A DNA stretch of 64,000 bases, taken from Tubiluchus corallicola (lineage: Eukaryota > Priapulida > Priapulimorpha > Priapulimorphida > Tubiluchidae). The stretch covers positions 75,001 through 139,000 of the forward strand of contig JAQGDQ010000283.1 of assembly GCA_030141605.1 (NCBI GenBank). Direction: 5' to 3'. Position 1 is the first letter of the stretch. Each line of letters begins with the position of its first letter. Positions 3,422 through 63,690 of the stretch are shown piece after piece. The notes under the pieces are model-generated. The model searched no databases and was not told where the DNA came from. It saw only the letters and a program-made list of their open reading frames with translations. The position numbers and the translations under genes were made by a program.

Positions 3422-3452
3422 ATGCTGTCCACCATTGCAATAATCTGTTGTA

Positions 3453-14972: not shown

Positions 14973-17057
<2,085 letters not shown>

Positions 17058-34253: not shown

Positions 34254-34293
<40 letters not shown>

Positions 34294-35225
34294 TAAGGGA
34301 TTTTTCTTGTGCCACCCTGTAACAAGGGAAGACAGTATAATGCCTTGTCGACTATGACACCAACTACTGTATTATGATTTACAAAACTTATTTGTGAACT
34401 ATGAAATGCATGTGCAAATCTATACCAATAGTTTTGTTGATGGTAAGCTGCTCCAAAACTCCTTTTCGTTTTGAAATGCATTGTTGATGTAATGGACTTC
34501 AGTACCCTTCGCCTTAAAGGAAAAACAAATTGCGAGTAAATTATACCTTGGCCGGAGATGCTGTATCACTTGTCTTATGACTCAACTTTTGCTTGGACTT
34601 TGGTGATCTCGATCTAGACCTTGAAGCTGAACTCTCTGACTCAGAACCAGAACCAGAAGAGCTGTCCGAAGAATATGATGAGCGAGAGTGACTTCGGGAA
34701 CTAAAATAAATTCAATAAATTAGGTAATTTTAATACAGCTTATTTGATAGCAACATGTGTTTGAGCATCTAAATTCATTGGGCTGATGTATTCAATAATT
34801 TGGGGCATAAATTTAAAATATATTCATTCACCAACATAATGACATGTGAAAGTCACAAATACACATGTAAGTTACTCTATGTACAGGTAACTGGACTAAT
34901 ACTTGGCAATATTAAGGAGTCAAAAAATTACAAAATTTCTGGAAAAAAGTAGTCTTTCTATAGCTGGGAAAATTTTGCATAGTTAATAAACCAATGAGTA
35001 ACATCAAGCAAAATATGACTAGGGCTAGTCATTTAAAAACAGTTAAAAGACAGACCATGGCTGTAGTTGATCACCTTAATTATAAAAATGTTTCCCTTTT
35101 TTGAAAAGCACAGCACAATAGCATCAAAACTCCCGATTTGAAGTTACAAACAACAATCCTAAGGAACTAATAAAATTAAATAAGTAAATGCCACACCTGC
35201 TATTACCACTGCTGTGACTTGACAT
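29612..35225 (-). CDS. RNPS1: RNPS1, RNA-binding protein with serine-rich domain (splicing/exon-junction factor), six exons
   Basis: Nuclear splicing activator that joins the peripheral exon-junction ASAP complex. Coding exons on the minus strand are 35225-35197, 34700-34547, 33498-33368, 32590-32491, 31058-30917 and 29844-29612, giving 262 aa with matching phases. The layout is a Ser-rich N-terminus (MSSHSSGNSSSRSHSRSSYS and a long Ser/Glu run), a basic region with SPRR and REREREHERRRR, and an RRM at about residues 123-200. The RRM has KVCIARLTKNVTKDHV, FSVYGDIKSVELPNDRMNPH and GDAYVEYERPEEAEKAIEYM. The tail has GQIDGQEITV, then RS/RP repeats to SSGSSSASS. These are RNPS1 hallmarks rather than those of SR proteins. 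The first exon is short (29 nt) and its donor GTGTGG is weak, so that end is less certain. The introns contain a SINE, a foldback element and an 88-bp tandem duplication. Confidence 0.93.
30685..30885 (+). mobile_element. tRNA-derived SINE, family 1, copy 1 (RNPS1 intron 5)
   Basis: A pol III-like head has an A box TAGCCTAGTGG (30694-30704) and a degenerate B box around GTGTCGAGTC (30741-30750). The spacing is right for a tRNA-derived promoter. It is followed by a core shared with 43505-43625: CAGTTCAGTGACTCAT near the start and CCTGATACTGAGTGCTAGATT near the end. Confidence 0.65.
31569..32233. mobile_element. hAT-like foldback MITE (RNPS1 intron 4)
   Basis: The ends CAGGGATCGTACT and (reversed) CAGGGCTCATACT match for 11 of 13 bases. 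GACACT flanks both sides directly. An internal inverted pair, GTTGGTATTGTCATTG (about 31763-31778) against the reverse of CAATGAGAATACCAAC (about 32022-32037), suggests a fold-back structure. Repeated ATAGGACATT units lie at about 31597-31655. No transposase was seen. Confidence 0.55.
33693..33868. repeat. Perfect 88-bp tandem duplication (RNPS1 intron 2)
   Basis: The unit starting ACAGCTGTACATTTGAGG at 33693 is repeated without a mismatch from 33781. Identical copies point to a recent event or an assembly artefact. It lies about 200 bp upstream of the acceptor of RNPS1 exon 3. Confidence 0.95.
34259..34290. repeat. (AT)n microsatellite
   Basis: A pure AT dinucleotide run of about 15 units in RNPS1 intron 2. 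Confidence 0.9.
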
Positions 35226-39720: not shown

Positions 39721-40599
39721 ATTTCCTAGCAACGGATATTAGTACATTCCCTAGCTGAATTTTTATGCTATCTCCCTAGCATGGACATCTCAAAGATGGA
39801 ATGTCTAACATCTCAAAGCACATCTCTAGTCTCTTCCAATAAAGATCAAGATTGGAACCATACCTGACAAAAGAATCTACTTTTAATTTGCCTAAGGTAC
39901 CTAAGATATCTTATATAATATATGTATATCGGCTTGATACAAGAATCGGAAATAACTAAAATTATCAAATCATTCAGGAGTTAACCTTTTTTCTTTAACT
40001 GCGCCACATTTTCTTTGTTGAACAGTCGGATACCAAAACGGAAAACATGCCTTGTGTTGATTGGTATTCACAGTAACAGAAATCTTTAGATCTCATCCTG
40101 ATATTCGCCTTGGTTTACCTGTATAAATGATTTTTGCATCACAGCTGTGTGACAAATTTTACACTCGTCTAATACGTCTATCACTGGAAAGATGATAATT
40201 CTTTTTCATCGCCCAGAAAAAAATAAAACACAAAAACTATTATTTCTGTTTAGAAACGAACAGAATCGATTATCGAAAAATTTCGTAAACAAGAATTAGA
40301 AAACTACAAACTGTTAACTGTTGGCACTACACTTTCTACAGCACAGTGTTTTATCTTCAGATAGAAAAAGTGATAATGAAAACACAAAAATCAAAATGAT
40401 CTGTGTCTTTTATTTTATAAAAATATAGCACTATAACTATTTATGACAGAATTATGATACAGAAATAATTTATTCAATGATTTTTTTTTAAATTAAGATT
40501 TTGACTTTTGACAGTAATTCACCCGCTCCACTTAATTATCAGAGTGAGGTATATAATAATAGGATAGATAATATATACTTTACTCCAAGGATGCTAAGA

Positions 40600-43048: not shown

Positions 43049-46000
43049 TTAGTAACGGAGATAAATTCTGGAAGGAATTTCTTCAAGAGATGGCTTGTAG
43101 CATTTTCTCTTCAAATCACGTTTTGTAAGAGCATCACTTGGTCTCACTGGAATCACCTGCAACAGAGAGAATGTTGCACTGTGAAATAATTAGATGTACC
43201 AATAATATAGGTTCGGTGTCACTAAACTACCTTTGTAACTGATAATACAGAAATAGCATCATCAACAGTGCCCACCTAGGTCAAGCTATAGAAACTTTAC
43301 ATAAACGTTAAAAGCTTGTTTTCAGCCGAAACCACCATTCTCCATCTCTTCCCACATGTCACGGAGTGGGCGGCATTTCGTATTTTCGTTAGGTTGGTTC
43401 TCCTCCTACAGTTTTTGAGTTAGGACCTGGGTACGCTCCTAGGTTTCATTCGCCAAACCACGGTTATAGTTGTTTACCTCGTGCAGGAGAATGTACAGTA
43501 TATGAGACACCTCTTCCAGTTCAGTGACTCATTTTAGAGATTGATGTTTTTGATAATAGGCGAGGCTCTGGTCTCGTCAACAGCATCGAATTGAGTAAGC
43601 CCTGCTACTGAGTACTGGATTCCGGTTACCAGGGTGTCAAGGTGTATAAAAACGTAACTGCTAAGAAACTGGCAGCTATGCCAATACAACTACATTAACA
43701 TTTATATGTGTTACAAGGCAAACTCTAAAATTTCTAGCCCATTCATTCAATACCTATGCATTTCGAGGAAAGTGTGAAATAAATCTTTTTGCTGCGCCAC
43801 TTTCATGCTTTACGTAAAGCGCCTGGCAACGGGTAAGACGAACATAATTGTGTTGAATCGAATTTTTCTTAGAATTTCATATACTACATAGGCATTGTAT
43901 GGAATGCATAAAACGATTTAGTCAAAACAGTAAATTAATCTAGCAGTTATTGTTTTATTGTCAACGGATGCTTCGTCACCATCCCTTCCTGCTCAACCAA
44001 ATGGACTATATTCCACACCTAGGAAATTGCTTTCCGACAAATACATTTCCAAAAAATTGCGGAGCATCGAATTGTAACAGCAACGTAAGCATTGAGAAAC
44101 TTACAACACGAGTCTCTAAAAACAAAGATCGAACCCAAAAATGAACCCAAAAAAGATTATGTCGTCATCTCAACCTTCCTCGAGTTTCTAACTGCGAAAC
44201 TTGAACTCTCTGCCATCGTCGAGTCAAAAGCTTGAACTTTTCCATCAGCAACCCCCCCCCCTCCACCATAAACATATCAAATGCGACTAGTACGTCCCTA
44301 ACATCGCAGCCTCAAAAGAGCAAATAGCCAGTGCATTAGGACGAGCATCATGAAACACTGTCTTCGTTGTTTATCACGATAATGCAGAGACCAGAGCACC
44401 AGGCTTCTTCGTCAAATTCTCTTCATTGAACTCACAACTGGCAAAACCCCAAGAGGATGCCTTCTTTGCCGCTACAAATACCAATTAAAATCCACTCTTA
44501 AAAAGTCTAAATAGACAAAACTAAAAATCAAAACATCTGATAAACAATCCCAGTAGTATTCCAACTAGCATCAGACCATCCACACCAAAACCCAGCATTT
44601 CGGAATCGAAAAAAAATGAGAGAAGAAAAAAACGGCATGTGGCAAAATCGAGATTCGAAAAGCTAAAGTGACCCCTAAAAAGGCTCGAATGAGCCCTTGT
44701 GTCACCGCGAGTTTCATGTAAGAATTGGACTCCTTTAGTGGTCAATATCACCATCGTAAAAGAGCCACGACACTGTAACATATGTTCTCGGACACGAGGA
44801 AAGGCCAGCGATTTTTCACAAAAACTTGCAAGCACGTTTAAACCGGACTTATTTCTAATTTCTTAATGAAAAATTGGCATCATAAAATGCCTAGGAAAAG
44901 TATATCAGTTTCCTAAGAATCTCGTACTTTACCTAAACGAACTTTTACATTATATGCATATTGCCTAGGAAAAATGTATAAGATATTATTTTAAGTGCAT
45001 TACTTGGTTTGTTTTGGCATTCCATAAAATGCCTATAGGCAGTCTATAAAATGCCCGGTTTCACGCTTTGCCTATAACATAGATACTCATGATAAAGAAA
45101 GTAACATACCTCTCCACGAAGTTGATTACGTGAATCGGACCACTTAATAATGTTCCCATTGTTGTTGTTACATGACTTGCAGTTTTTTAAGATTTCGTTT
45201 TCTGTAAAGACACGATCATACCAATTGGCATCAGTCAGGCATCCTAAAAAGTCGCCATCAACAGTTTCATCAAGTGCGCCACCAAGAGATCCAAACACTT
45301 CGTCATCATCCACATTTGTAACATCAGGCCCTGGATCAGTCAGTGGTACTGTGAAAGTAGACCCACCACTCTAGAATAAAATAAATAATTACAATAGTTG
45401 ACGCCATTAATTGTCATTGTCATCATCATCAATCATAGTGTCAGTCAGTCAATGTGATAACTTCTCATATCACTTTGCATAGCTGATCATTACCATGGTG
45501 TCGTACCCATCACCAAATTATTATCTCTTGCTTCATTTTCGCCAACTTCATTATCTTTTGTTGTGTTGCCATCAAAATCACAGTCACCACCATCATCGTC
45601 GTTATCTTCATCAACATCATCATAGACATCATCATCATTATCATCATCATCATCATCATCATCATCACCACCACCACCTCTACTGTCACCAAATGATGTG
45701 GCTTGCAATCACACTTGAGTGCAAATGTCCCACGTTGTCTCCAAAAAGAGTGAAATCTGAGTCCACATTAAATGAAATGAACGTCGACATGCCTGAGGTT
45801 CTGTTCGTAATCTTGTTACAAAGAAAGAAAACTCGGATAGAACTTCCTGATTTTTATTTATTTGTTGTCTCCCACAAAAATCATTCCAAACTATCACTCT
45901 ACCTTAAAACGGACATACAACAAGCAGACCAAGGAACTTATACTGCTTAAACCTTATTACACATCTTTTTTAAAAACATAGGCTTTGAATAATTTAACTT

Positions 46001-49000
46001 GACTTTAAAATAGCAAATATTAATATCAAAGCATGAGAAAGGAAAAGGAACGTATACGAAACTATTTGAAAATTACAAATGGTGGAAAATTTGCAATTTT
46101 TAATTTGACACTATAAATAAAAATCATCTTATGTTAGATGCATTTCGTTTCCCAAATATTGACAATTCTATTCGCATAATGAATACTTGCATATGTTTAA
46201 CTACAGCCTTTGTAAATAATTTGAAGTTATGCTTACGCCTCTGCTAGGTTTAAACTGGAAAAACGTCATTCAAGGCTAAATCTGCCAAGTTATGATGAAG
46301 TCTATAAACCATTTTTATGTCACATAGGACGTACATCAAGTGGAATCAATACTTGACACAGAAAGACTAATAATATATGAACATCAACGCGCAAACAACC
46401 TGTGAGTGAAATCTCTGGACCTTCTCAATAAAGTCAAATTGTCAATGTCTTAATTGATACGGTGACCCATACAGGAGACCAGGATTCAAGCATGGAGGCC
46501 TGACACAAGCTTTCTAGGCTTTTAATACTGCATATTTGTGATGCGTGATGTGATAAGGTTAAAAACACCTAAAACCATATTTACAACTTTATAGGTAAAA
46601 TTACAACTCTGTGGGTTAAAGTAAGTGAAGTTAGACTGATACGCGCTGTAACCTTATAGTTTACAAGATGGACATTTATTCTTACCATTAACTTTATAAT
46701 GTAATTTCCCAGTGTCTTACAATGTTAATAAATAAACTATTGAACGACCTAAGCTTTAGTTACTTGTTGATTACAATTTTTTGAACATTGTTAATCAGAG
46801 TTCACCATAATGCCTAAATTGTTACAGCTAGATACATTAGTCAGTGGAACTCCGTTTAAGATGTACTGTAACTGAAAGTTGCCATAACCAAGACGCAACA
46901 TAGTACATTTAAGTGTAGAAATAGATGACTGCCATTCATTTGACCACAAAGATAATATTTCTATAGTATCGCAAAGAACGGGATAATTATTGCAACTGGT
47001 ATTCAATTTTAAATCATTGGGAAATAATTTGAAATTAACAGTGCTCACTACATGGGGTAAACCATCAATGTAAAGTACGAATAATATAGGACACTTCAAT
47101 CACACTTCCTTGAGGAGTGCCCGATATAACTGGTCTATAATGAGAGAACCGAGAACCTAAACCTGCAACCTGCTGGGTACTTTTGTATTTACAAGAAAAG
47201 CTTCAATCCATCTGAGCCCGGAGCTTCACTAGCAATTTACAATGTGCAAAAGGATATCAAGCATAATCATAGTAATTACATCAAGTTTAAGCCTTACTCA
47301 AGCCAACTGCACCAGTCATTAACGCACTCAAAAAGTGGAACGGTTTTTCATAGATCCATATTGTGACTTCGAAATCAAAACTTTCAGAATCAAGCAGTCA
47401 AGTAATTCATCTTTTATAACTTCATAACTTCATTTGCTGCACACGTGGGTGAGATTAGGCGGTAATTATACCAGTCGGAAGGGTCACCCTTTCTTGTACA
47501 ATGGCACAATGTAAACAGAGAGCCAGATTTTGGGTAGTTGTTAGTTGCAAATGACACCTCAAAAACAGAAAAATAGAAAAGTGGAAAGCCAGTTTAGCAA
47601 ACGAAATATTTGGCAATCCGTGAGGAGAATGACTGATTTAATGGTTTTACAATTTAACTTTTTTAACACTTTATACACAACAGGTAATGAAAAACTTATA
47701 TCACATTTACTAGTATCGTTATAGACCCGATCAGGTAAGAAATCGGTCAACCCGTTATCGATAACATAATTTTCAGAAAGCACACGAGATAAAATATTAG
47801 CTTCAGTTAAGTCTTCAACAACTATTTCGCCATTAAATTTGAGAGGCGCAAAACCAGATTTATAATTACTTTTATTGTTTAATGATTTAAAAAGAAGTGA
47901 CGTTACTGGACAAAATATAGGATATTACTTCGAGCTGCTTCGTGAACCAGCTGAGAAAACCCAATTTGTTCAAAGCAATTTGCAAATAAAAGTTATAAGA
48001 ATGTAAACCAGGAACTGTTAAATTTTGCCGATCAGTTTCGGGAAATTAAAATCTTCTGCAAGCACGCAAAGCCTTTGCAAACTGCACAATTCCACAATAC
48101 AAGAACTAAATGTTTGATGTTGTCAAAGTTTGGGGCTCAAATAATGCTGGTTTGAGCATCACCAACTAAATGTTGTGCTACTGTTTCACAATCCACTAAA
48201 AGTAAACGGATTTTAATTTACTATTGTTAATCAAGATAGCTGCCTCCTCCCCTACCAATTCTAACATTACAAAATACTGAAAATTTACCATTTAAATTCA
48301 ATAAACCAGAAGGCACCGTAATATCTAGTCAAGTTTCAGTAAGTTGTGATTTGTGTCTTATCATAATATTATGTGTTTAGAATTTGAGAACGTACTGCTT
48401 AAAAACTACATGCAGTTGAAAAAATGAATTTAACAACAGATAAAGTATAAAAAAGAGTGATATAAACGCACATAATAAACAAAATCTGCGGCAGCTCGCG
48501 TTAGAATTTGACAAAGTAGATGGACGATGCGGCTTAGTTCGAAACCGCAAAAATAGTCCACAGATTCATCGATTAGCATAAATTTGTGCTACTAACCCCT
48601 TCTCCACAATCAATGTAGGAGCTAAACATTCCTTTCGAATTGCTGTGAGTACTGCATACGTGATGCCAATGACCGTCGCAATAGTTAAGTAATCCAAATC
48701 CTGGAAAGCTAAAAAACGAAAACACAGAAAGACAAATGTAACCAGTAACCACATTCCATAGTGACAGCAGCTGCGCACTTGTGTCAACGCTACTGGAATA
48801 ATCTGCATAATCTATCGTACGTAATGCACAGATCGGAGCAGCGTTTAGCCCAGCCCACCTTGATGATGTAACACATGTTCTCACAAACACTCGCTGGCTG
48901 CAAGTCGCTATATATATATAGTACATAAATTAACGTGAAAAACATAGATAGGTTCCTATGTTGTCATCTGCCGAAGTCTCTAGTCTAAAAGTCAGTAGAA

Positions 49001-52000
49001 AAGAGCAAAGTTTTAAAAATAGCAGAAAAATAACAGGTTGTAAATAACGCATGTTTTATTATAATCATTTTTTTTACTTCAGTAATTTTTTTTGAAAAAT
49101 TATTAGCATTTGAGGTCTGTTTCAATTTATTGGATTGTTTAAGTAGCTTTATTTATTACTATATTATTATTAATATTACTGTTACTATTACATATTATAC
49201 AGTACTGGTATTTTTTGGTATAGCATAGGCCCTATAACAGTTTAATTTATTAATAGGAAAAAAGAATGCAATGTTTAAAATGTCAGGGAGTAAAGAACTT
49301 GTAAATAATGTGTCATTTATATCCCCAAGTTATTTTGGTATTTTTTATGAGATATCAGTAGCACTTGAAACGAGCCCTTGAAAATTTGTTTGAATAGAGT
49401 AGATTCTTTAAGTAGCAGAGTTTATTACTAAATTATGGACTGGTCCCCCTATTTTTCAGTGAAAGCATAATTAGGAATCCATACTGGCCTATTCCAAACG
49501 CTGATCATTGTTATGGCTACTTAGTTTTTATCCGACTGAGTATTGTTGCAAATAATAATTTATATAGGTCTGCGTACTCTAAACATGGAAAAGGTATATT
49601 GTAAGGGGGTACACCATTTTGTCCTCCAATTGACCAGCCTATCATGCGCTCATCTATTCCATCTTCTCCCGGTACTGCTGTAGACTTAAAACATCTATAA
49701 TGTGAGCAAACAAAAGCAAACAATGAAATTCGTCAGAACTAAATTAAAAAAGCAGGACCTACTTTTCACAACAAAGGCTCAGCCTAATGAACTTAAACTA
49801 CAGCTAAGTCTTGTTAAAAGGTTGACATTATAACCACTATACATGTGAACCTATATTAATACTACTACCAGTATGTAGTAAAGTCTGTAATTAGGCCACT
49901 AAATGTTGTATACTACCAGTATGTAGTAAAGTCTGTAATTAGGCCACTAAATGTTGTATACTAGAATTTATGAAATTGAAATTCTTGTCATTAAAAATTG
50001 TTGTTATTGTGATACGTACTACTTTAGCACAAACAATAAATGTTATCTATGTAACCTAAATACTACGCGTCGTTACTACTGCGGTACCTACCCGCATACA
50101 GTGAATTCTGAAAACTGTTTTCGTTTCTGCAAGATAGATCCTTTGAGTTCAGCGCGAGTGAAATTCCTTCCATTGAAGCAAAGATCATACACATGAGGAT
50201 CTATTTTGGCGCAAGGCTCCCCTAAAAGGTAGCCAGACGAGTTGGTTTTTTTATATAAGAAAGACAGCTTAAAAAGTACTATTTGGTTATATGATAGCAT
50301 GATTTGTGATATAAAAACGAGATGTAAAATTAAAACGAAACACCCTGATTGGTTTTTGGAGACTATTTTTGTAACTGAGAGTAAGGGTGAAACTTAAATA
50401 TAAATCTGACATACTTGACGATATTTCCACGCTAGTTCGACAAGCAAGTTTAAATTTCGTGCGTAATAAATACTTGTTTTAGATTGCTAACCTGCAAGCG
50501 TGGGCCTCTTTCGGCGACCGTGCGGCTTCCTGATAATTCGCAGATGCTTTCTCTTTGAACCATTTGCCTAAAATGTATAATAATAGTAAAATAAATGAAT
50601 GAGATTAGCTATTTGATTAAATTCATACGCCTACTGCAATTGAAAAATTGTGAACTTCAACAATTGCGAGTATGCAATTAGAGAACTTTGTACATGGAGT
50701 ACTATAAACGGTCAAAATCACTGATATACATTCAGTGACTTTAACTGATTCTTACATGCGAATCGTGAATTTGACTTAAAGGTCATTCATTGTGAAAGAA
50801 TCCGTAGTTACCGAATGGTCGGTTACTCCTGTCCAAAGTATGCCTAAGGCTTTCCGGAACAAAGACTTTTATAGTTAATAAATTTGAATTGTACGCTGCG
50901 CAAATGTTAAACAGGCCTTAAAACTTTTTGCATAATGATCTACATTAATTAATGTTAATGTGTTTCATATTCTGTAAACTCAATAGTCATTCCACATTTT
51001 AATGTAATATGACTCCAACAGGAAACAAAATGTATGAGAAATTTAAAACTTGCTGGATGACTTTTCTTGCAACGGACCAGGTGCTGAGGCGGTACCTGCT
51101 GAACCAGTGAACCTCTGCAAGCTATACTACTTGCAGGTGTTAGCATGCGAACCATTGAACCTCTGCAAGCTATACTACTTGCAGGTGTTAGCATGCGAAC
51201 CATTGAACCTCTGCAAGCCATACTACTTGCATGTGTCAGCATGGGTAATAGACAGAACCATTGCAATATAGAATGTGGCCTAAAAAACTGGCTTCAATAA
51301 ATTGCTCCCTTCTACAGAAAACGGTTTGTCCCAAATCAGCATGAAGCACACATTACATAAGTGGTAGTATGCAGCTGACATCATCTCTCAACAATCACAG
51401 ATTATAAAATCGATATTTGTGTTCCTCAACGTCCTTTACCGGCCCTACTTTATTCCCACTTTACCAAAGATCTGTGACACTCTATGCTCTCTACGCTCGC
51501 CTTCTATGCTAAGTGTACTACTCTGTGCAATATTTATCATCCTGTCCCGTTTGACAGCTCCTGGCTAGAAACACTTTACTCGCTTATGAAAATTATCGAA
51601 CGTGGAAGCAGTCAATTTACTAGCGTAGAAACAACAATTTTTAAATTTTCGTCAATAGCTGCTAAATTTAAACGCGTGCCAGAATTTTGTCATTTTATTG
51701 TATAACAAATGTTCACCAAAATGGTGATTAACCCCAGCTTTACTCTGCATGATTTAAATTAGGAACCGAAACGAATAACTAGGTCGTCCGAGTAAAAGTT
51801 TAACTACTATCGAATGAGTTACAATAGTATAGGACTTCGTGCGACAATTAATTATTGATAATCTTAATATCAAAACTATTACTAATAAAACTAAATCACA
51901 ATTAATTAAATTTCGAAACCAAACTTGAAAAATGGGTAATGTGAAAAAGCTGCAACGCAGCCGGGATTTCAACTTACAAGGCAGAAACCATAAGCCGCAA

Positions 52001-52682
52001 CGTAGTTTATAGTGTTCCCCAGCCATTATGACACTCCAAATTTCATCCTGGCCAGCCAGTTCATCATTTCCAACATTAGAGCACTCGCGCTGGATTTATT
52101 GTAATAAATCAAATTAATTTTTATTTTATTTTTTATTTTATTTTATTAATCTGTTGAACCTGACAGTCCCATCGATAATATAATTAATTAATTATAAAGT
52201 TAACATCAAAATTATTATTGATGATGGTACAAGCCCCCAATTATTTAAATTTGCAAACCAAATTTGAAAACACGAAATGTGAAAAAATTAGAGCGTACAA
52301 GGCAGACGCCATGAACCGCTAGACTACCGTGTATTATGGACTTTTGTGATCGTTTGAGAAGCCGGTAATCTAGTGGCTTATGGCATCTGTCTTGTAGACA
52401 AAAGGTCTCTTTTTCAATTCCAATCCAAGCTGTGTTCCAGCTTTTTCACATTTCCTGTGTTTTCAAGTTTGATTTCATAATTTTGGTTTTGTATCAGCTT
52501 CATGTGACAAATCTTGATTTCAAGTCTAAACTCTGCTCGAATTACTTAATTTACGCGTTCCGGAGAAAAGGTGGAAACTCAGGTTAGAGATCTGTAGGTG
52601 TCTGGGAGATCCAAGTAAGTTGAAACAAGCTTACCAGATTGAGAAATAAACACATTAGGACTAGCAACACTAGTATCTTCAT
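43049..52682 (-). CDS. PTX-B: secreted pentraxin-like protein, seven exons
   Basis: Proposed coding exons on the minus strand are 52682-52635, 50567-50492, 50221-50092, 49694-49578, 48708-48597, 45370-45110 and 43156-43049. They give 283 aa with every phase consistent. Exon 1 is a signal peptide (MKILVLLVLMCLFLNL). Exon 2 is basic and has RRKR, a possible furin site. Exons 3-7 form a pentraxin-like jelly-roll: FSEFTVCG (family first cysteine), CDGHWHHVCST (second cysteine), DDDEVFGSLGG (place of the Ca-binding loop), LTDANWYDRVFTENEI, then NIIKWSDSRNQLRGEV, matching the ILDW...RGxV end of C-reactive protein. Extra cysteines are shared with PTX-A. The exon 4 donor is uncertain: GTACGC at 49577 was chosen, but GTCGGA at about 49536 joined to a different acceptor also keeps frame. 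No binding target can be inferred. Confidence 0.72.
43410..43640 (+). mobile_element. SINE family 1, copy 2 (PTX-B intron 6)
   Basis: It shares with 30766-30885 the core CACCTCT..CAGTTCAGTGACTCAT, an internal segment of similar length, and TTGAGTAAGCCCTGCTACTG followed by AGTACTGGATT. The head is too diverged to show clear A and B boxes. Confidence 0.55.
45590..45682. repeat. (ATC)n-type microsatellite in PTX-B intron 5
   Basis: Imperfect ATC/ACC triplets, giving spurious poly-His, poly-Asp and poly-Met frames. It lies between PTX-B exons 5 and 6. A related triplet repeat inside PTX-A is coding, but this one is intronic. Confidence 0.85.
46190..48260 (-). mobile_element. Degraded non-LTR retrotransposon in PTX-B intron 5
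   Basis: On the minus strand, a GRGGGS-like endonuclease motif may lie at about 48260-48240. It is followed by a linker (LSENYVIDNGLTDFLPDRVY, about 47780-47720) and RT remnants (ILFVLYIDGLPHVVSTVNFK, then LFPNDLKL in place of a catalytic FADD, about 47085-47000). There is also SLWSNEWQSSISTLKC, and a C-terminal segment KMVYRLHHNLADLALNDVFP at about 46320-46260. The catalytic aspartates are lost. Endonuclease assignment is tentative. Confidence 0.7.
49863..49963. repeat. Perfect tandem duplication, 48-bp unit (PTX-B intron 3)
   Basis: The unit beginning TACTACCAGTATGTAGTA is present twice (49863-49910 and 49911-49958) without mismatch, plus five bases of a third copy. The start of the unit is itself an imperfect palindrome. 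Confidence 0.93.
51101..51244. repeat. Minisatellite of three 48-bp units (PTX-B intron 1)
   Basis: Units start at 51101, 51149 and 51197. Each contains the inverted repeat CTGCAAG...CTTGCAG around an 8-base spacer (slightly changed in the third unit), followed by GTGTTAGCATGC. The unit length is a multiple of three, so the minus strand stays open as a 16-residue repeat (MLTPASSIACRGSMVR), but there is no sign that it is translated. Confidence 0.9.
51830..52025 (-). mobile_element. tRNA-headed SINE, family 2, copy a
   Basis: On the minus strand it has GCGGCTTATGGTTTCTGCCT, TGTAAGTTGAAATCCC, then a body with GCAGCTTTTTCACATTACCC and TTTTCAAGTTTGGTTTC, and an AT-rich tail. The same head and body occur in the two copies that follow. 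Confidence 0.65.
52160..52345 (-). mobile_element. tRNA-headed SINE, family 2, copy b
   Basis: On the minus strand it reads GGTAGTCTAGCGGTTCATGG and CGTCTGCCTTGTACGC (a tRNA-like A box and anticodon arm), then TTTTTTCACATTTCGTG and TTTTCAAATTTGGTTTG. Part between head and body is deleted relative to copy c. Confidence 0.65.
52355..52500 (+). mobile_element. tRNA-headed SINE, family 2, copy c
   Basis: Plus strand: GCCGGTAATCTAGTGGCTTA, TGGCATCTGTCTTGTAGAC, AAAGGTCTC...TTCAATTCC (a B-box-like region), then CCAGCTTTTTCACATTTCC and TTTTCAAGTTTGATTTC. It stands head to head with copy b, about 10 bp apart. Confidence 0.68.
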
Positions 52683-53714
52683 TGCTTGGTTACCTGAAAT
52701 TACCGTAATAATACTTAATGCGTTTAATACATCAACATCCATAGGATCTATTATTCCGCCTTTAATATATGTTTTTGCTATCTTCAATTTTGTATTTTAA
52801 GATTTGATAATACCTGCATATATAAACTTCCTCGCAGCTGAAGTGAGTGCGGTGGCACTCAGTTAATTAAATCAATTGATCTATTAATCACAAATAATCA
52901 GTTTTTCAAAACCAGTCAAAAATGCTAAAAAATATATACGTTTTCCAAAGATAAAGAACTAATAACGGCTTACTTCAAATTGGCTGAGTGCTTTCGTTTC
53001 GTAGAACACGACCTTAACGACTTTCAAGAAGTAATCTGTCCACTTATTTAAGAAGTCCTATCCCTTTTCTCTCCGACACTTACTCTTGATCAACTGTGCA
53101 TCGAAACTGACAGACTGAGGCGCTTGTCGCTCGTTTTGGTTAATTGGTAAAAGCATATATACTATAACGCAAATTTATTCGTGTTTAATATTCTAGGGCA
53201 AAGTTCCGCACACGTAAAGTTATAAATGAGGCTTGAAACGTGATAAAAATTTTAAAAATATACTACAAGAATAAAGTTTTGTAATAAAAATCGCCCTAGT
53301 TCGCTCATAGGTGTATGACCCAATGACCAGAAACATTGTCCTATATTTGCTTAAATTTATATAAATGTTAGTATAATTTAGTATTTGCGTTTTGTTTGAC
53401 ATGCTTGTGAAAAGTTGTTGTTACATTTAGATCTCTAAGAAAAATTAACGATGAACTAAGTCGACAGTAAGCTATGTAGACAATAAGTAGACTACACATT
53501 CTATAAAGCTGCTCCGCTTATTTTATACTATACAGTGTCATGTTAGCAAAAATATAAAATAAATAAATGCAGCATAAAATTGTGTACGCTTTGCAATGTT
53601 TTAAGAAAACATGTAACCAAGGCTGAAACACTCTTTCATCTCCAATGATGCTTCTTCTTCGTTTTCTTCTGTACATGTAATCAACTAGGAGTTCCTCACG
53701 CGATTTTCCTTGAT

Positions 53715-53762
53715 TTCTTTCTGACTATCTCTCTCTCTTTCGCTCTCTCTTCTTCTTCTCTT

Positions 53763-53820
<58 letters not shown>

Positions 53821-53825
53821 TTCCC
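53715..53825. repeat. (CT)n microsatellite
   Basis: A long, slightly interrupted CT dinucleotide run with a few CGCT and TTCT units. Confidence 0.93.
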
Positions 53826-53914
53826 CTCCCTCCTTTTCAAACAGAATAAGAAAACGCGCCATTCCCACGTATTCCCACAACACTAGGCCACTGGTGCAAG
53901 CAATATTAATTCAG

Positions 53915-54145
53915 TTAGTTATTACATTATAAGTTAGCATATTTACCATTACATTATGCGTTTCTGTAGTGTCACAATACACGTAAAACCTCGGGTCATT
54001 ACAGTATGCATTTTCGAGGTCTTACATTGCGCGTTATTTTTTACTACATTATCGGTTAGTTATTACACTATGAGTTCATTTGTTATTACATTATTCGCTC
54101 GTTTTTCTTTATTAACAATATTGTGCGTTTATTACATTATCAGTT
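53915..54145. repeat. Degenerate array of ATTACATTATNNGTT units
   Basis: About eight related units at irregular 20-50 bp spacing, for example TTATTACATTATAAGTTAG, CCATTACATTATGCGTTT, CATTACAGTATGCATTTT, ACTACATTATCGGTTAG and TTATTACATTATCAGTTG. Confidence 0.55.
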
Positions 54146-56643
54146 GCAAAAAGGCTTCTTTCCGAAAACTGTTTCCCTGCTAATTGCAATCACACTTCAA
54201 GAAAAAAATACCTCCTATCATTAACTAGGCTTAACTAATTATAAAACTTCTAGTTGTGCATGTGATTATGTTCTTGTGCCAGTAGCACCTAAACTTATAT
54301 GGCGCGTGATTTGTATAAGCAACGAGTATTTACGCAAACCATCAAAGACCTATAATTGTTTATTTCAAAATGGCGCGAAATGTTACGTTATTTTGACAAT
54401 TTGTCCATTTTATACATTTGCGAATAAAGCTCCTGCCGTCGTCTGTGAACAGAGTAAGTAAAAGTGAATTTCATACTTTTTGCTAGATTTGGAAAATCAA
54501 CCAAGTCTGCCTAATTGAAACAGTTTAAAAATCAACATTCAAACAATAAATGAATGCTCAACCAAGTTTTTTTATTGAACCAGTACCATTCACTAAAACC
54601 ATTATATATAATAACAGAAACTTATTGCGAATATGTAGTTCCTGATGATTACACAGCTAGTAAGTAATAAACTATTGGATTACGTAATTATGTAATTTAT
54701 TACCAAGCCAACACCAAATAAACAGGCTGAATGAATGGTCAAGTTTAGACTACATGCTACAGTGTTATAGTCCTATAAAAAGCCCGACATTCTAATAATG
54801 TATTTTCATAATGCCATTGTTTGTAGTTCATGAATTAGCAAATGCCACATACAGGAACATTTAAGACAACAAAACTGCTACACAGTAGATAAATATCATA
54901 AAACAAAATGAAATGAATTCTGCAGTAAGCAGTAGAAGCTAGATTCTGGGAATCATTCCGGATATTTATACTTACTTGTAACTGCGAGCCTTGCATATGA
55001 AATCTAGTAAACGATAAAACGAAGTCACGGGTTATTATTTACTGCCTCCAGCCATGAAATAGCATCTGACGAGTGCTCGTAAAACCAAAGTTCATAATCA
55101 GTAATATGTCCAGATATGTTCCCAAATTACCTTTTCGTTGTTCTGCTAATTAATCTAAATTTTCCTGACCAATTGGTCCATACGTTAAACCCACCCTCTT
55201 TCTTCATTTACCAGCTCCCATCTGCAGAGTATGTAGTTACAAGCAAGTATAAAATGTGGAATTAATCCTTCCATTTGTTAACTTCACAGCTTTGCCACAT
55301 TTGAAGTATTTACTGGTCGACTCAGAATGCTTCGTTTTTTCATTACATTCATCTATTGTATAAATGTTGCGTTATATTAAGAATTATTATAGTGTTACCA
55401 AAGGCATCTAGCAGTAATCAGACGTAATCAGAAAAGCGACCAGGACAGCAGCCATTCGCCTGTGGAAACGCTGAAGCAATCGTGCGCGGTCTTCTCTTTG
55501 GACACCTCCAACATGTCGTCAAAAGAACATCGTTTTTAATAAGCTTTCTATACCAGTGTACCAGCTAACTTTTACACTAATTGAACCCGGCCCAGACGTG
55601 ACCAGACCTCTGGACCTTAAGGCCAACTAATTTAAATTTTCTTGCGATTTGCTGTAAAATTGTTTCGAACTGTCAATTAATTTTGCCAGATTAATTTTTT
55701 CTGCTTACCTTCTTGTAATAAACTTAATGCATTTTTATAATAATTTTATAATATTTTTCCAAATAAGTAAGCGTTATACATCTTCCGGATTACAGTTGTG
55801 TAGGCGTTATGCGACTTTCACCAGCAGCACTACAAACTTTTTACATATGATACGCACCTTCTCGAATCCTTGCAATAAGCGTTATGCAAAAATTCAACTT
55901 GACATTTTTATAAGAATTGTAATACTCGGAATTTTAAAAATAAAAGGGCTTTCTTTCGTTTGCGTATTCCATGCTGGTTCGAGGACGAACTACACAGTAA
56001 AGGGTAGAGTTAAGATAGCAAAATGCCATTTATTTTCATGCCTCCAATCTCCATATTTTGACAATTCGATCCATTACAAAGCCATTATATAGCAGCTATA
56101 AGTAGCTTGTATGGAATGGCCTCGTCGGTTCAAATGACTGACGGACAAGTTTGACTAACACGACAACACTTGTTCCGCAGAACTAGCATGGAACACATTA
56201 GATTCTGGCAAGTTTATTTTACAAAAATTCTGTATGTATCGACAACATTACAACATTTAACATCGACAAAATCGTGAACTACTTACGCAACATTTGGCAT
56301 ATATAAAATAAAGGAAGCAATTTTGGATATCAGATATTAAACTCATACTTTTGATAGAACTGCAACAAGTGTACTCTATAGCCACCTATCTAGTACTGCA
56401 AATACTGACAACGACTGTAGCAGCCATTTTATGAATTTACTATTGCCATTATAGACATACCTAAATTGTGATTTTAACACACTCAAGTCGCTGCAGTTGT
56501 TTGCTACCATCGCTGCGATGTCACTATACTACCATACATGTTACAGCAAAAATAGCGTTGTGCATTACAATCATAAAAAACGTTTAAATACAGCTTACGC
56601 ACTTAAATAAAACCGTACTATTAAATAAATTATTATTGAGGAA

Positions 56644-59600
56644 TTATTTATCACCATTATCAGCATCATCGTCACCATCTTTATCATTAGTATCATTATC
56701 GTCGTCATCATCATCATCATTACTATCATTATCATCATAACCATCGTCGTCGTCATCATCATCATCGTCGTCGTCCTCGTCATCAATTGAGATTCCGTTC
56801 AGGATTGATTGTCGTGTCATGCTGTATACTTCATTGTACTTGAGCCGGTCGTAGTACGCAATAGTATCAGTCGGTTTTATTGAGAGTAACTGCAACACAA
56901 ATAACGAGTTTGATTACTAGTCTGGAGAGCAAAGCATTGTGTCGCTCACTTATTGATTATTTTTCTACTTAACTGTCTGTGTATGTAACTTAGAACGTCA
57001 TTTATCATTGCCATGGAATGTATTCTTAATAACAATTTGCTGCGCGTTCAGACTAGCGAGTTTTCTCGCAAAGAGATCTTGTCAAGTAACTCTCAAGTGT
57101 GTCGAGACTAAAGAGCAAAAGTCAACCGAGAGTAACTCGCCGAGGCGTTCACACTAGCTCGCAGGAAATCAATTCGCAGTAACCTTTCGGAGAGTTTATG
57201 ATAACTTGCTGACGAATAACTCGCAAAGCAATTCACCCTTGTAAGTTTCCTGTCAGAGAAAAACTCGCGACAGAAAGCTCGCTAGTTTGAAAACACTGTA
57301 AGAAGTAACTCGATTTTAATCCTAACGAAAATCAGGGGTAGAATACAAGAAGCTGGTTAAGAACTGATTATACGAACATTGAGAACGAGACTGGCGACAT
57401 AGACCTCTTTGCGGAGTTACTTTGCAAGCGAGTAACCCAAAAACCGAAAACACTAATAAACACTCCGGGTCTTTTGATTAAATAAAGTACAAACATATAC
57501 TCAAAAGATGATAACTAATATAGCAATGATATCATATAGAAATATGGTGTAAGCTAGCGCGTTAAACTTACGTCTCCACGAAGCATTGTTCCTGCGTCAT
57601 CCCAGCTGATAATATCCCCATCCTTGTGGTCGCACGTCGTGCAGTGTTCAAGAAGTTTCCTCTCATTCATAATTCCTTCGTACATATTAAAGCCAGTTCC
57701 AAATCCTTTAAAACCCGCATTACGTTGTGTGGAGGGATCAAAGACGCCACCAAGAGATCCAAATACTTCATCATTTGCCACATTTGATAAATCAAGCGGT
57801 CCTTGCCTGGAATCCGTTGGTACGTCCATCTTCATGGTATATCCACCATACTGAAAGTCATTGAATCTTAAGCTGAACATCGTGTAAATCTCAGTGCTTA
57901 TCCAAAAAATTAATGATTCCTTTTCTAAATGTCGGGCAATGCAAGTAATACAGAATTATATCTTCTTCAGCTTTTTCTATTTTTAAAACCACTATATAAA
58001 TTTCATATTGTTAACAGTAATATTTGTAACCTAAAACTAAGATCAGCATGAGTACTGAACAGGGGCTACATAGAAGTTATGATTAATACACACATAGATT
58101 TACTATCTACTTAATACCTTAAGAGTTAACAAAAAATATCATTACAAGTAGCGACAGGATAAATTTATATGTGTATAATTAAAAGCAAAATATCAGTAGC
58201 TAATATTAAAAAAAACAAATGTTAATTTTTTTTTATTGTTCGAATAAAACACAAGTTTGTTAGCTTACAAAAGCTGACGTCATTGTTCTAACAACTGGCC
58301 GTTGTTGTACACCCCATAAATAAATCGCCATTTTACCTTTAGGATCCGCTGATATAATTTTAACTGAAACTTTTTCTTCTAACCTGGCTTAAAACAAGGT
58401 AGTGTACTTAGTCCTGATTTGTTTTAAATTTTCGTTAACGATTTCGGTGATATTTATACGTTAGCTTGTGATCCTGTTAAATTAGCCAAGGAAAAATTTA
58501 ACAGTTTATTATATGCAGATGATATTGTACTCGTTTCCAGTAGTAAAATGATCTACAGATGTGTTTAGAAAAACTCGTTTCTTATTTTGGTAAATGGGCT
58601 CTAACTGGTAATTTAACTTAAACCGAAATAATTATTTTTGACAAGTCAAGCAAAATCCGAAAGCACGATTATCGAAATGAGTCAAAAATACAAACACATT
58701 GGAATTGATTTTTATACATCAAAAATTTCCAGCAATACACTGACATTGAGTAATAAAGGCCGTCTTTGCAACAATAGGAAAACTTTCGCAATATGATATG
58801 CTCGTAGATTTGGCCATCAAAATACATAACTGCACCGTTAGGTCCATTATCACATATGGAACCGATGTTTGGGGCCCTCTAGCTGCTTTCAATACTGAAA
58901 ATTAATTTATTTATGACACTCTCGAAACAGTTCTTGAAAACTTAAAAACGAACGTTTCAGTTAAAATTTTGCAAACAGATGTTACATGTACACTAAAAAA
59001 CTGTGAGAGCAGAAATGGGCATGTACCTTATACATTTGTCTTTGATGTGAATTTAGTTATAAGCTATTGGTTACATATACTGAGAGCACCCAACGATAGT
59101 GTCATTTACAGCGTATATTAGGCTGTAAACAAAATGATAACCAAAATGTGTGCAACTGGGTCTCTTTTGTTAGGAAGATTTTGTATAAACTAGAGTTTCA
59201 ACACATCTGGGAAAATGTAGGCACATTCATTGTTCGTTCATAGATTTGCTCATCGATTAATAAGAAACTACATGATTGATATAAAATTCATGATGATAGC
59301 AGCGATTAGGGGGTAATAAACTCCGAATCTACAGGCTTTCTAACAAACTCCGAATCTAATGGCCTTTTAAAACTGTATGTTGGAAAAATATTTGCATATG
59401 CGTAATAAACCAATTCCTAGCGAACGCACAACCGCGAATGTACTCTAGATTCAGAATATAGTGCGCATAAATTGTATATCAAGAGGTGCAGGTGTCACAA
59501 AACAAAAATACCTGCTCATCAAAATGTGCAGGACAGTGAAGTGGAGAATTAATTTTTTTAGTATGATATGTCCTGCTTATTAAAACGAAAGAAGAGCTTC

Positions 59601-61845
59601 ATTTAAAAATATGTAAAAATGTTTTCTTTTGTTGCAAACATGCCTGTAAGTGAACAGTTTGTCTTTAATAACGGCAATAACCACTAAACAATATGGCGAT
59701 GAGAACTTTAACAATAAATTTCATGTATGAGATCAGCAAAAAAGAGAACAGAAATACGATAACATAATTATGTTTACTACATACTACATTAATAGTTTTT
59801 TTACACTATGACGTGTTCTACTGTAAAAAATATATTTCAGGTTTGACAACTATGTGATAATGTGAGTGGTGCTACCTCTTGTCAAATTAGGCAATTCTAC
59901 CCCGGTTCGTTCAGTCAACATGACAAGAACGAGTTAAGACACCGCGTGGCTTCTGATCTACGCCCAGATTTCAACGTTTAACTAAGAAGAGAATCACTAA
60001 TGAAAATGTTAAAAAGCCATATTGTTGAGATATTTCGCGTGAACTTCGCCCATCGTCAATCAAGATAGTTCCACAACCTATAAAGCAAAAATAAATTCAT
60101 ACAACTTTATTTTTGCTTTATAGCTTATGGATCATTCTTGGCCGATCATAGGCGAAGTTTGCTCGAAACGTGTCAATAAAAAGGATTGTTGTTGTCATTT
60201 TTCTTAATTAAATTAGATTTCTAACAAATCGAAGTTTATTTTAATATTTATTCAAAAACGTATGAATGGTTTTGTTTTAAGATCGCTTTCACGAACAATT
60301 GCAGGTTTATGCGGTATTCATCAAACTTCGTAACTTAAGAACACTTGGTAAATGACTATTAAGAATTTTCGCACAAGCTTAGTTTTTAATGCTTTTTCTT
60401 GCGAATATTATTAAGAACCTAATGATAAATCGGACCTCTGAAATATGAACCACTCCTGTCTTCCTCCCTCGATTCTCTCCCTCCTCTCTCTATCCTTTCA
60501 TTCAACTCCTATCCCTCTCCTCTCCTATCCTTTCATTCTTTGTTAGCTCTTCTTCGCTAGGCTTGAATAAAGTTGTCCAGCTCGACATATGGCCATCAAG
60601 CCTTACCATGGCGGATACTTGGCAGCCGCGTGACTTGATTACAAAGAAAATTCTAAATACTGTTGAAATACTAACCTGTGCACCACAGTCAACATAAGCT
60701 GCGAACGTCAGTTTTCTTCTTTTCAACTTGTAGGTGGAACAAATGTTGTGCCAGTGCCCATCACATAAACCTTCATCTGACTTATTCCATGCGCCAGGTG
60801 GTTCGATGCTCAGTCTGAGTTATAAAATTATTGTAAATATTGTAATATGTCACTAACATTCCAGATTTGCTCATTTTTCTGTGGAGAGAGAAAAAGATGG
60901 AATCATAAAAAACAAGAAAGAGGAGCAGTGAACAGGGCAAAACAGGGGAAATTAACGCAAGGAAGCAGTCAAGAAAATAATGGGAGGACCAGAGAGAGAG
61001 CGGAGAGAGAGACAGAGAGGAGAGAAAGAGAGAGAAAGAGAAGAAGAGGAGAGGAGAACAGAAGAAAAGAGTGGAGAGAGGGGACAGAAAAAAGAAAAAA
61101 AGACAGAAAGGAGACTAAAGGTGGGAGGGCAAGAGATGATGGAAATATTGAAGAAGAGACGGGGAAAAGATAGCCCTCTTCTTTCGACAACTAGATTTTA
61201 TTATTGCTTGCATAAATGGTAGCCAGGTTGAAAAATATTTTAATGAGAGAACCACACCAAACTTCTAGAGTTCTAGTAGTGATTCGAGCGCAACTAGACC
61301 GACTAAATGATTAGATAAATACCTGTATTTATCTAGAGCTGTCTTTCCACAGGCAACGTAATCATACTTGCCAGTTTCATTTTTAAAATAAAAGGCCATC
61401 ATGACGTCACCAACCGAAGAATCTTTTCCTGGTTCGACTGTTGCCTTGTAGCACCTGCGCAAAGGGATAACTGAGTCTTATTAAGAAATCGCTACAATTA
61501 CATACCTTGCAATAAAATATTATTCAGGCATTAGACGTAAGCCACAATGTGGATCAGTCCTCAGTTCCGACATTCCGAGGCTTTCATTGAAACAGCGTCC
61601 TCTGTCTGACATTCACTATTGTTAATCTTGTCAAAAATCCAAAAATCAACAGGTCCTGAGTTTGACCTATACTTTACCCCTATGCAACATCTAAATTTCT
61701 AAGAGTGTTGCAGGGTTGAGAACAGCGACAACAGATAGACAGACAGAGAGAAAGACAGTCACACAAACGCACAGACAGAACGAATTGCGACTATAATCGG
61801 ATTTCGACTTTAAATATTTAAACTTTTTATTGTTGTTTTTATTGC

Positions 61846-61909
<64 letters not shown>

Positions 61910-63690
61910 GCTTTTTCTGTGGTGTTGCTGTTGCAGTCGTCGTCGTCGTTGCTGTTGTTCTTTTTTTCTGTGTTACTGTATCAGGCATCGTTTTAAATAG
62001 GTCAAAAATCTTGAAAGGAGCTTTCAATCCTATAGGCCTGACTTGCCATATTTACAATAATTGTCTTCATTATAATAAGCACATTTTATGTACCACGACT
62101 GGCTTAATATGTACCCACACACAGTGTATCTAGAAAAGCGTCCTCTTTTCTTCAACATGGAGCCAATGAGTTCAACATAAGATTTGCCTCCTCCCATAAA
62201 CCAGATGTCATTCGGCTCGTCGGTTACAAGGCCTAAAATACAGAATTTATGTATTTGCATTTATTGATATTTGCATTTATGTACAAGCATGTAGTTTACG
62301 TTGTGCCTTGGGAAATGTGTCATTTTTTGTAACCCATACACTTTGTAACCCAGGTTCTCAAATCAAAACTTGGCAACTCGTAATCTAGACACTTGCTAAT
62401 TCAAACATTCGGTAAACGTTTTGAACATTTTGAACTACATGAATGTATTTGCAAAAGCCACTTTATAACATGGGTACGGAAAAAGCCTGAAACTTAGGCA
62501 CTTGGTAACCTGGGTATGTGGTAATCTAGAAATTAGTAACTGAACACTTATAATAACTTTCATACTTGATGTCTATGTAAATGTTTTGTAACATGTATTC
62601 TTGTTAACCAAAATCTACATACTTTTAACATGAGCACATATTACCTCAAACTTATAAGAAACTAACAATAAAACCAAGGGGAAGGAATGTATTCTTTTTA
62701 CCTGAAGATTACTGCTAGTATGTACTGGAAATGTTGATTACTTTAATAAAAATAGTATAAAATTCGTTGATATTGTGGGATGTTCATCAAACTGATGCTA
62801 TTCTTGTTATTGATAATTTGAAACTCCGTATAGCACAACTTTTTGAACGTTTAGGTACAAACTCATTATTATCACAACTAGAATGACGTAAAATGTATTT
62901 CGTAGGTTGTAACTAATCTCGCCTCACATAAGAATTTGTAGGTTGAAACATGGCAAATACAGTCGTTTCCATGCGCCCAATATCATAAGAGACAAACCAT
63001 TATTGAACCCTGACCTGTAGATGTCCATTACTAAGTATCCCAGTCACCAAATCAATTATTTTGTTATCAAGTTTCTGGGTTACAAATCTTTAAACTACCA
63101 AATGTCCTAGTTACAAATACCTGAACACATTTACCACGTGTCCAGTGGTGATTTAAGTTATTCAAATATTGCTAAACTACACAAATTTTTTATTGTAGTC
63201 TCCATTCTGTAAGAAGGTCCTGAAAAGGAAGTTAATCCAAATGATTGATTGAAACTTTAACACGAATGTCTACTCGTTATCGTAAAATAAAATGAACATA
63301 ATACAGCGATACCAACCAAAATTTAATTTACCACTCACAAAATGACGATTTTTTTAGTCACACCAAAATTTACCATTACTCTGAAGTCATCAACAGCAAA
63401 TGTTGATTATTACCACAATATCCTGTATGAACATTTCTCTAAAACACGCCGTGATATTTAGTTGAAACCGAAAATCTGCATACTAATAAGTTAACAGGTT
63501 CCACGATAAAATATTAATGTTAATTACCAAAATATATTGCTTAAATTTTTTTACACAAAAAGCATCAAAGACTTTAACTGCAAATAGTTAGTCATAATTA
63601 CTTACTCTCGTTAACATTATTCTCGGACCAAGGCGCAGCAGCTATTAAAACAGGTATCGCTAAGAGAAATGACAATTTCCCGATGTTCAT
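56644..63690 (-). CDS. PTX-A: secreted pentraxin-like protein with Asp-rich C-terminal tail, six exons
   Basis: Coding exons on the minus strand are 63690-63606, 62232-62115, 61454-61323, 60814-60676, 57850-57572 and 56889-56644. They total 999 nt (332 aa) and all phases close. Exon 1 is a signal peptide (MNIGKLSFLLAIPVLIAAA). The pentraxin-like domain (about residues 30-275) has SYVELIGSM, RYTVCGCYKATVEPG (first family cysteine), LCDGHWHNICSTY (second family cysteine), a VDCG strand and NDEVFGSLGGVFD (place of the Ca-binding loop). The FGTGFNMYEGIMNERKL region follows, then DGDIISWDDAGTMLRGD and LLSIKPTDTI, matching the family's final WxxxxxRGxV strand. Residues from about 288 on are almost all Asp, Asn and Gly, encoded by a GAT-type repeat that reads straight to the stop. 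It is likely a secreted recognition protein like other pentraxins; its ligand is unknown. Confidence 0.78.
56650..56785 (-). repeat. GAT-type microsatellite inside the last exon of PTX-A
   Basis: Imperfect GAT/GAC/GAA triplets on the minus strand. They encode about 45 residues rich in Asp, with some Asn, Gly, Ser, Thr and Lys, ending ADNGDK-stop. Because all units are triplets, slippage changes only the length of the acidic tail. Confidence 0.85.
57041..57300. mobile_element. MITE-like element rich in ACTCGC motifs (PTX-A intron 5)
   Basis: The left GCGTTCAGACTAGCGAGTTT matches the reversed right end GTGTTTTCAAACTAGCGAGC. The interior carries at least six copies of AACTCGC or its complement and a second internal GCGTTCACACTAGCTCGC. 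The right boundary could extend towards 57460. The superfamily is uncertain. Confidence 0.5.
58385..59150 (+). mobile_element. Degraded non-LTR RT in PTX-A intron 4
   Basis: In broken frames: GLKQGSVLSPDLF, VNDFGDIYT, then LNSLLYADDIVLVSSS with an intact YADD (about 58496-58545), YFGKWALTGNL and KYKHIGIDFYTSKIS. A tail has ITYGTDVWGPLAAFN (about 58850-58900). These are the LINE RT core and post-RT landmarks. It is in reverse orientation to PTX-A and inactive. Confidence 0.78.
60030..60172. repeat. Long palindrome (about 65-bp arms) in PTX-A intron 4
   Basis: CTATAAAGCAAAAATAAA (60078-60095) and its exact complement (60106-60123) flank a 10-base loop. The arms continue imperfectly outwards to GTGAACTTCGCCCAT on the left against ATAGGCGAAGTTTGCTCG on the right. 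As RNA it would fold into one extended hairpin. Confidence 0.85.
60440..60545. repeat. Pyrimidine-rich tract
   Basis: CCT/CTC-rich sequence with CTATCCTTTCATTC present twice, about 130 bp past the donor of PTX-A exon 4, inside intron 4. Confidence 0.75.
60980..61125. repeat. (GA)n-rich purine tract
   Basis: Interrupted GAGA/GAAAG repeats in PTX-A intron 3. The Arg/Glu-rich frames through it are repeat artefacts. Confidence 0.85.
61841..61960. repeat. (TTG)n microsatellite in PTX-A intron 2
   Basis: About 22 perfect TTG units, then mixed CTG, GTC and TTG triplets. The poly-Gln frame on the minus strand has no splice sites linking it to PTX-A. Confidence 0.9.
62290..63140. repeat. Possible foldback element with arms of degenerate short repeats (PTX-A intron 1)
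   Basis: The left arm (about 62325-62655) is full of units such as CTTTGTAACCCAGG, CACTTGGTAACCTGGGTATG and GGTAATCTAGA. The right arm (about 63015-63120) carries the same units on the opposite strand (TTTGTAACCCAGAAACTTG, GATTTGGTGACTGGGATAC). The arms face each other around about 350 bp. Boundaries and class are uncertain. Confidence 0.4.

Follow-up and report, generated by a model that had tools for sequence, protein, structure and literature searches.

The window analysed here was a stretch of 64,000 nucleotides from Tubiluchus corallicola (contig JAQGDQ010000283.1, positions 75,001–139,000 of the forward strand), and all positions below are counted within it. It contained two minus-strand genes, A and B, which are most probably old tandem paralogues, each encoding a secreted, single-domain, cysteine-rich pentraxin-like protein with a hydrophobic leader. 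Gene A (56644–63690, 332 residues) was composed of six exons (63690–63606, 62232–62115, 61454–61323, 60814–60676, 57850–57572, and 56889–56644), with an open frame running over all of them and exon similarity to gene B. Gene B (43049–52682, 283 residues) was composed of seven exons (52682–52635, 50567–50492, 50221–50092, 49694–49578, 48708–48597, 45370–45110, and 43156–43049). Both models had been proposed in a first-pass annotation made from the letters of the stretch, and they were rebuilt with the same lengths and positions; a GT donor and an AG acceptor were present in all 11 introns. To the extent that exon similarity and splice signals can show it, the gene structures hold, and we infer the splicing from these.

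The first exon of each gene (63606–63690 in A and 52635–52682 in B) encoded a hydrophobic N-terminus, which is likely a signal peptide. The 12-residue hydropathy peaked at 2.8, starting at residue 8, in A and at 3.6, at residue 3, in B, and beyond residue 40 it was at most 1.1 and 1.2, respectively. Exon 2 of B (50492–50567) carried a basic stretch with an RRKR site, for which A showed no counterpart. Exon 5 of A (57572–57850) and exon 6 of B (45110–45370) were in phase 0 at both ends, shared 40% identity, and contained a DEVFGSLGG loop, a CxxC motif, and an IISW..LRG (A) or IIKW..LRG (B) motif. The last exons were partly alike, and each model terminated at a stop codon.

Shared exon plan and age of the duplication

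When proteins A and B were compared by blastp, 83 of 229 positions were identical (36%), with an E value of 1e-35. Exon ends in A had the phases 1/2/2/0/0; those in B read 0/1/2/2/0/0, with one additional 5′ intron of phase 0. Three introns were identical in column and phase in the A/B alignment (0-based columns 86, 180, and 273). The remaining phase-2 pair was 2 columns apart (133 versus 135) within a gapped stretch, and the phase-1 pair was also 2 columns apart (45 versus 43) within a poorly aligned stretch. The annotation had claimed equivalent phases of 1/2/2/0/0; the phases were right and three sites exact, but two sites were displaced and the additional intron of B had gone unmentioned. 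Random placement of 4 + 4 introns over 618 sites would yield at least three exact coincidences with a probability of 4e-7. Because of this shared exon plan, the earlier proposal that A and B arose as tandem duplicates is well supported.

The two gene regions gave two blastn matches with E values below 0.01, both within matching exons; the other 14 matches listed had E values of at least 0.27, including one in the matching exons A5/B6. A profile built from A and B was compared with 2125 six-frame pieces of the window, each at least 20 residues long. The 12 pieces with E values below 3e-8 were all exons of the two models, high scores that are expected of the profile's own exons, and the next-best piece (E value of 0.36) overlapped exon 1 of B. 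No third copy was found within the window by this comparison. Between the start of gene A and the window end there are 310 bases, so that further copies may lie beyond that end.

Nonsynonymous (dN) and synonymous (dS) divergence was estimated over 206 codons as 0.51 and 1.80 by NG86 and as 0.48 and 2.03 by LWL85. dN was smaller than dS by each method that yielded values, although the test is blunt at saturation. At identical residues of the whole domain, 38 of 79 codons agreed, about the number expected by chance (32.1, with a standard deviation of 4.2). The exon pair A5/B6 was an exception, with agreement at 22 of 34 codons (expected 13.3, standard deviation 2.7), whereas 16 of 45 agreed outside it (expected 18.8, standard deviation 3.2). 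This exon pair also contained an identical 19-base run over FGSLGG (57745–57763 and 45277–45295, minus strand). The codon excess in A5/B6, remarked on post hoc, could reflect gene conversion or local constraint. Silent sites were saturated over the domain, and the duplication therefore looks old. The domain is consistent with purifying selection. The strong divergence likened earlier to that of innate-recognition genes looks like age, with no sign of the rapid change known from some recognition genes; rapid evolution of A and B was unsupported, given the saturated silent sites and a dN below dS in this blunt test.

Similarity to pentraxins

Gene B matched the Pfam family Pentaxin (PF00354) with 30.1 bits, above the curated cut-off of 25, whereas Laminin_G_3 scored 23.3 bits, below its cut-off of 27.6. 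Exon 6 of B alone scored 20.8 bits against PF00354, below the cut-off. When B was compared with PDB sequences, the best matches were NPTX1 (8.2e-12), NPTX2 (1e-10), and six PTX3 sequences (1.1e-4 to 3.4e-4). All eight matches with E values below 0.001 were pentraxins, and the ninth, with an E value of 0.97, was not. The A+B profile matched NPTX2 (3.5e-9) and NPTX1 (6.3e-9), and its eight matches below 0.001 were likewise all pentraxins. The pentraxin-domain homology of gene B is thus direct as judged by sequence comparison, and the nearest solved relatives of the domain appear to be the C-terminal domains of long pentraxins. A pentraxin of the CRP/SAP type had been proposed for both genes; the homology and the conserved cysteine pair stood, but neither CRP nor SAP was among the PDB matches of A, B, or the A+B profile at E values up to 10, and the pentraxin signature was incomplete.

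Several observations weigh against the reading of A and B as old pentraxin-like paralogues. Gene A did not match PF00354 at E values up to 10, whether as the whole protein, as a tail-free piece, or as exon 5 alone, so that the PF00354 search suggested for both proteins succeeded for B only, and the best PDB match of A alone was weak (NPTX2, E value of 0.2). The full 8-residue signature HxCx[ST]Wx[ST] was absent from both A and B. The maximum likelihood estimates (dN of 1.03, dS of 10.9) were extreme, as expected near saturation, and YN00 gave no value. Finally, no AATAAA was found within 1500 bases past the stop codon of gene B, where two ATTAAA were the only such sites.

Since A alone misses PF00354, its assignment as pentraxin-like rests on B and on a profile test with shuffled sequences. 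A small profile made from stretches of NPTX1, NPTX2, and PTX3 gave gene A a score of 26.5 bits, while the best of 500 shuffled A sequences reached 7.0; B scored 55.9 bits, with a best of 3.2 for 500 shuffles. When B was added to the profile, the score of A rose to 84.3 bits, against 6.8 for the best shuffle. As the full signature was tested and is absent, A and B are labelled a pentraxin-like variant and would not be canonical pentraxins; the label implies no new function.

Two other Pfam matches of gene A, CDC45 and PPP4R2, were artefacts, as both were below cut-off and neither returned for the tail-free piece. The PPP4R2 stretch (residues 286–322) was almost entirely in the acidic tail, and the CDC45 stretch (residues 177–326) extended into it. 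NCBIfam gave nothing for A or B. The A+B alignment gave 47 pattern matches in prokaryotic contigs and 29 in viral contigs, none of them confirmed, which says little on animals. The gene pair was not recognised among literature titles and abstract beginnings, a scope outside which most subscription papers lay.

Cysteines, calcium loop, and charged ends

Eight cysteines aligned between A and B and accounted for all cysteines of A. The conserved pair of the FTVC and HxC motifs, Cys84 and Cys142 in B and Cys67 and Cys137 in A, aligned with NPTX1 and NPTX2, and the usual pentraxin disulphide would join these residues, with up to three more bonds in addition. Residue Cys228 of B aligned with the cysteine preceding the GNxIxW strand in NPTX1 and with that preceding the GNIVGW strand in PTX3. 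The latter is presumably Cys357, which is bonded to Cys179 in PTX3 (PMC6459138). Among the landmarks listed in the annotation, CDGHWH, EVFGSLGG, and LRGD/LRGE were present as described, but FTVCGC read YTVCGC in A, and HICxS was replaced by NICST (A) or HVCST (B). The pentraxin signature is written HxCxS/TWxS in its source (PMC3539679). The best window of B, HVCSTHSN, kept three of its five fixed positions, and the corresponding window of A, NICSTYKL, kept two by reading.

The calcium ligands of CRP are Asp60, Asn61, Glu138, Gln139, Asp140, Glu147, and Gln150 (PMC6503050). The loop before the GG was longer in A and B than in NPTX1 and equalled that of PTX3 in the five-sequence alignment. With the ligand numbers placed on NPTX1 as we take them to correspond, the Asp140 position of B read Gly in the NPTX1 PDB match and Val in the five-sequence alignment, where A also had Val. 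Gene B had an acidic residue at the Glu138 position and Asp at the Glu147 position, and the Asp60/Asn61 positions aligned ambiguously. A loop changed in this way may mean that A and B bind calcium otherwise than CRP does, perhaps weakly or not at all.

The most unusual feature of A and B is their charged ends. The C-terminal tail of A (residues 287–332 plus the stop codon, 56644–56784) contained Asp or Glu at 32 of 46 residues, with a net charge of −30, and was encoded by a GAT/GAC-rich tandem repeat (56650–56785). Mismatches to GAT at the three codon positions numbered 10, 6, and 13 of 46, a pattern that tends towards silent change without settling the matter. Residues 20–42 of B, encoded mainly by exon 2, had a net charge of +10. 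By the furin site rule, cleavage at the RRKR site of this stretch is doubtful because a proline follows it.

A GAT/CAT microsatellite was also located in intron 5 of B (45591–45667), in a frame that would read acidic, like the tail of A. A tblastn match between that tail and this repeat (E values down to 1e-9) represented low-complexity similarity. The repeat as a hidden acidic exon was unsupported, as mismatches to GAT over 45672–45550 were even over the codon positions (10, 11, and 10 of 41).

Proposed function, surroundings, and relation to known pentraxins

Each protein would fold as a LamG-type β-sandwich and assemble into rings or stacks, and the ligands of both may be carbohydrate or phosphate-bearing, displayed by microbes, damaged cells, or the extracellular matrix. 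What each protein sticks to would then depend on its charged end, acidic at the tail of A and basic at the head of B. A far more speculative proposal, to which we give very little credence, is that A and B are co-evolved pentraxin-like lectins forming mixed oligomers held or aimed by their opposite charges, with the head of B possibly released at RRKR as a cationic peptide.

The two models might be pieces of larger multidomain matrix genes of the Polydom/SVEP1 type, where sushi, EGF, and VWA domains surround a pentraxin domain; in that case the terminal exons would be wrong. The pentraxin domain of cnidarians also occurs inside Polydoms (PMC12549020), and the sequence upstream of gene A is only partly in view so near the window end. 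However, both models open with a hydrophobic leader and end at a stop after partly similar last exons, gene A has an AATAAA 426 bases beyond its stop codon, and Pfam gave no other domain above cut-off in either model, sushi, EGF, and VWA included, the introns lying outside the scan; we regard this reading as quite unlikely. Less likely still, A and B could be LamG/ConA-like lectins that resemble pentraxins from outside their lineage. The incomplete signature and altered calcium loop, together with the Laminin_G_3 score of B, would fit such an origin, but PF00354 outscored Laminin_G_3 and alone passed its cut-off, the two canonical cysteines aligned with NPTX1, and every PDB match below 0.001, for B and for the A+B profile alike, was a pentraxin.

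The tail of A raises a further alternative, improbable though not negligible, in which A and B are biomineral or matrix proteins, the poly-Asp tail binding calcium mineral and the domain anchoring to glycans. The preponderance of Asp and Glu in the tail agrees with this, and the proteome table of red-coral biomineral contains two pentraxin-named entries in a source that also covers the Asp-rich skeletal proteins of stony corals (PMC7853314). Against it, a GAT-type microsatellite is also present in intron 5 of B, and the tail may thus have arisen from a repeat slipping into frame; B has no acidic tail, and the source animal may have no skeleton. Secreted single-domain pentraxin-like proteins remain the preferred reading of the pair.

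Elsewhere in the window, a plus-strand gene for ribosomal protein S8 was located at 3444–7870, with frames 3444–3776 and 7514–7870 matching PF01201. The frame between them (4114–4599) had no Pfam match and is, we assume from its resemblance, retroelement-like. Plus-strand frames at 15105–16659 presumably belong to a hAT/ZBED-type transposase; the two of three that were scanned (15692–16090 and 16216–16659) had no Pfam match. Exon-like minus-strand frames at 29612–34711 had SR-rich ends and an RRM-like core (EIFSVYGDIKSVELP..., AGQIDGQEITV...) and resemble what we take to be the splicing factor RNPS1; frame 29612–29986, the one scanned from this set, had no Pfam match. Remains of a non-LTR-like (long terminal repeat) retroelement were located at 37587–39775 on the minus strand, with RVT_1 at 38169–38771 and flanking frames without a Pfam match. 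Tandem arrays were present in intron 3 of B (49863–49963, 48-base unit, 2.1 copies), in intron 1 of B (51101–51243, 48-base unit, 3.0 copies), and away from both genes (33692–33869, 88-base unit, 2.0 copies). The window contained no tRNA and no Rfam family at the gathering score.

When A and B were compared with NPTX1 and NPTX2, the FTVC and HxC cysteines aligned with NPTX1, as did the cysteine of B before the GNxIxW strand. However, the signature Trp was replaced, the EQD of the calcium loop was not kept, and A and B had more cysteines. The NPTX proteins have a long N-terminal region, which A and B lack: with a presumed leader of 19 residues, about 17 residues (A) and 34 (B) separated the leader from the first residues aligned by blastp. 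The two-residue longer loop before the GG in the five-sequence alignment was common to A, B, and PTX3, and the sequence DET to B and PTX3. The PTX3 chain includes an N-terminal region and is joined to other chains by disulphides (PMC6459138), whereas in A and B only short stretches precede the domain.

Like CRP and SAP, A and B are short, predicted to be secreted, and built of one pentraxin domain, with cysteines at the CRP-type positions, which we take to be Cys36 and Cys97 in CRP numbering. The CRP domain lies within one exon; A and B, in contrast, have four introns inside the domain, as well as an altered calcium loop and charged ends. CRP of Limulus is encoded by several homologous short-pentraxin genes in one invertebrate, as are A and B, and has three intrachain disulphides (PMC6503050). 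The Limulus subunits have identical ends (the first 44 residues and residues 206–218; PMC6503050), whereas A and B have dissimilar ends, a comparison made by description and not by sequence. Passages of three other sources name pentraxin solely as part of SVEP1-like or other multidomain entries (PMC4595640, PMC6368272, PMC6003135), and one more speaks broadly of pentraxins in the larvae of corals (PMC12960093).

Within the pentraxin family, the members of vertebrates and of the horseshoe crab are known best. The unusual details of the present pair are the introns inside the domain, the incomplete signature, and the oppositely charged ends. Taken alone, the pair is an ordinary find with unusual details and leaves the view of pentraxin mechanism unchanged. 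It would add to the known family, modestly, two divergent genes with several introns in the domain, in which a long-pentraxin-like domain appears in a short format, and with broader sampling their exon plan could help to order the split between short and long pentraxins.

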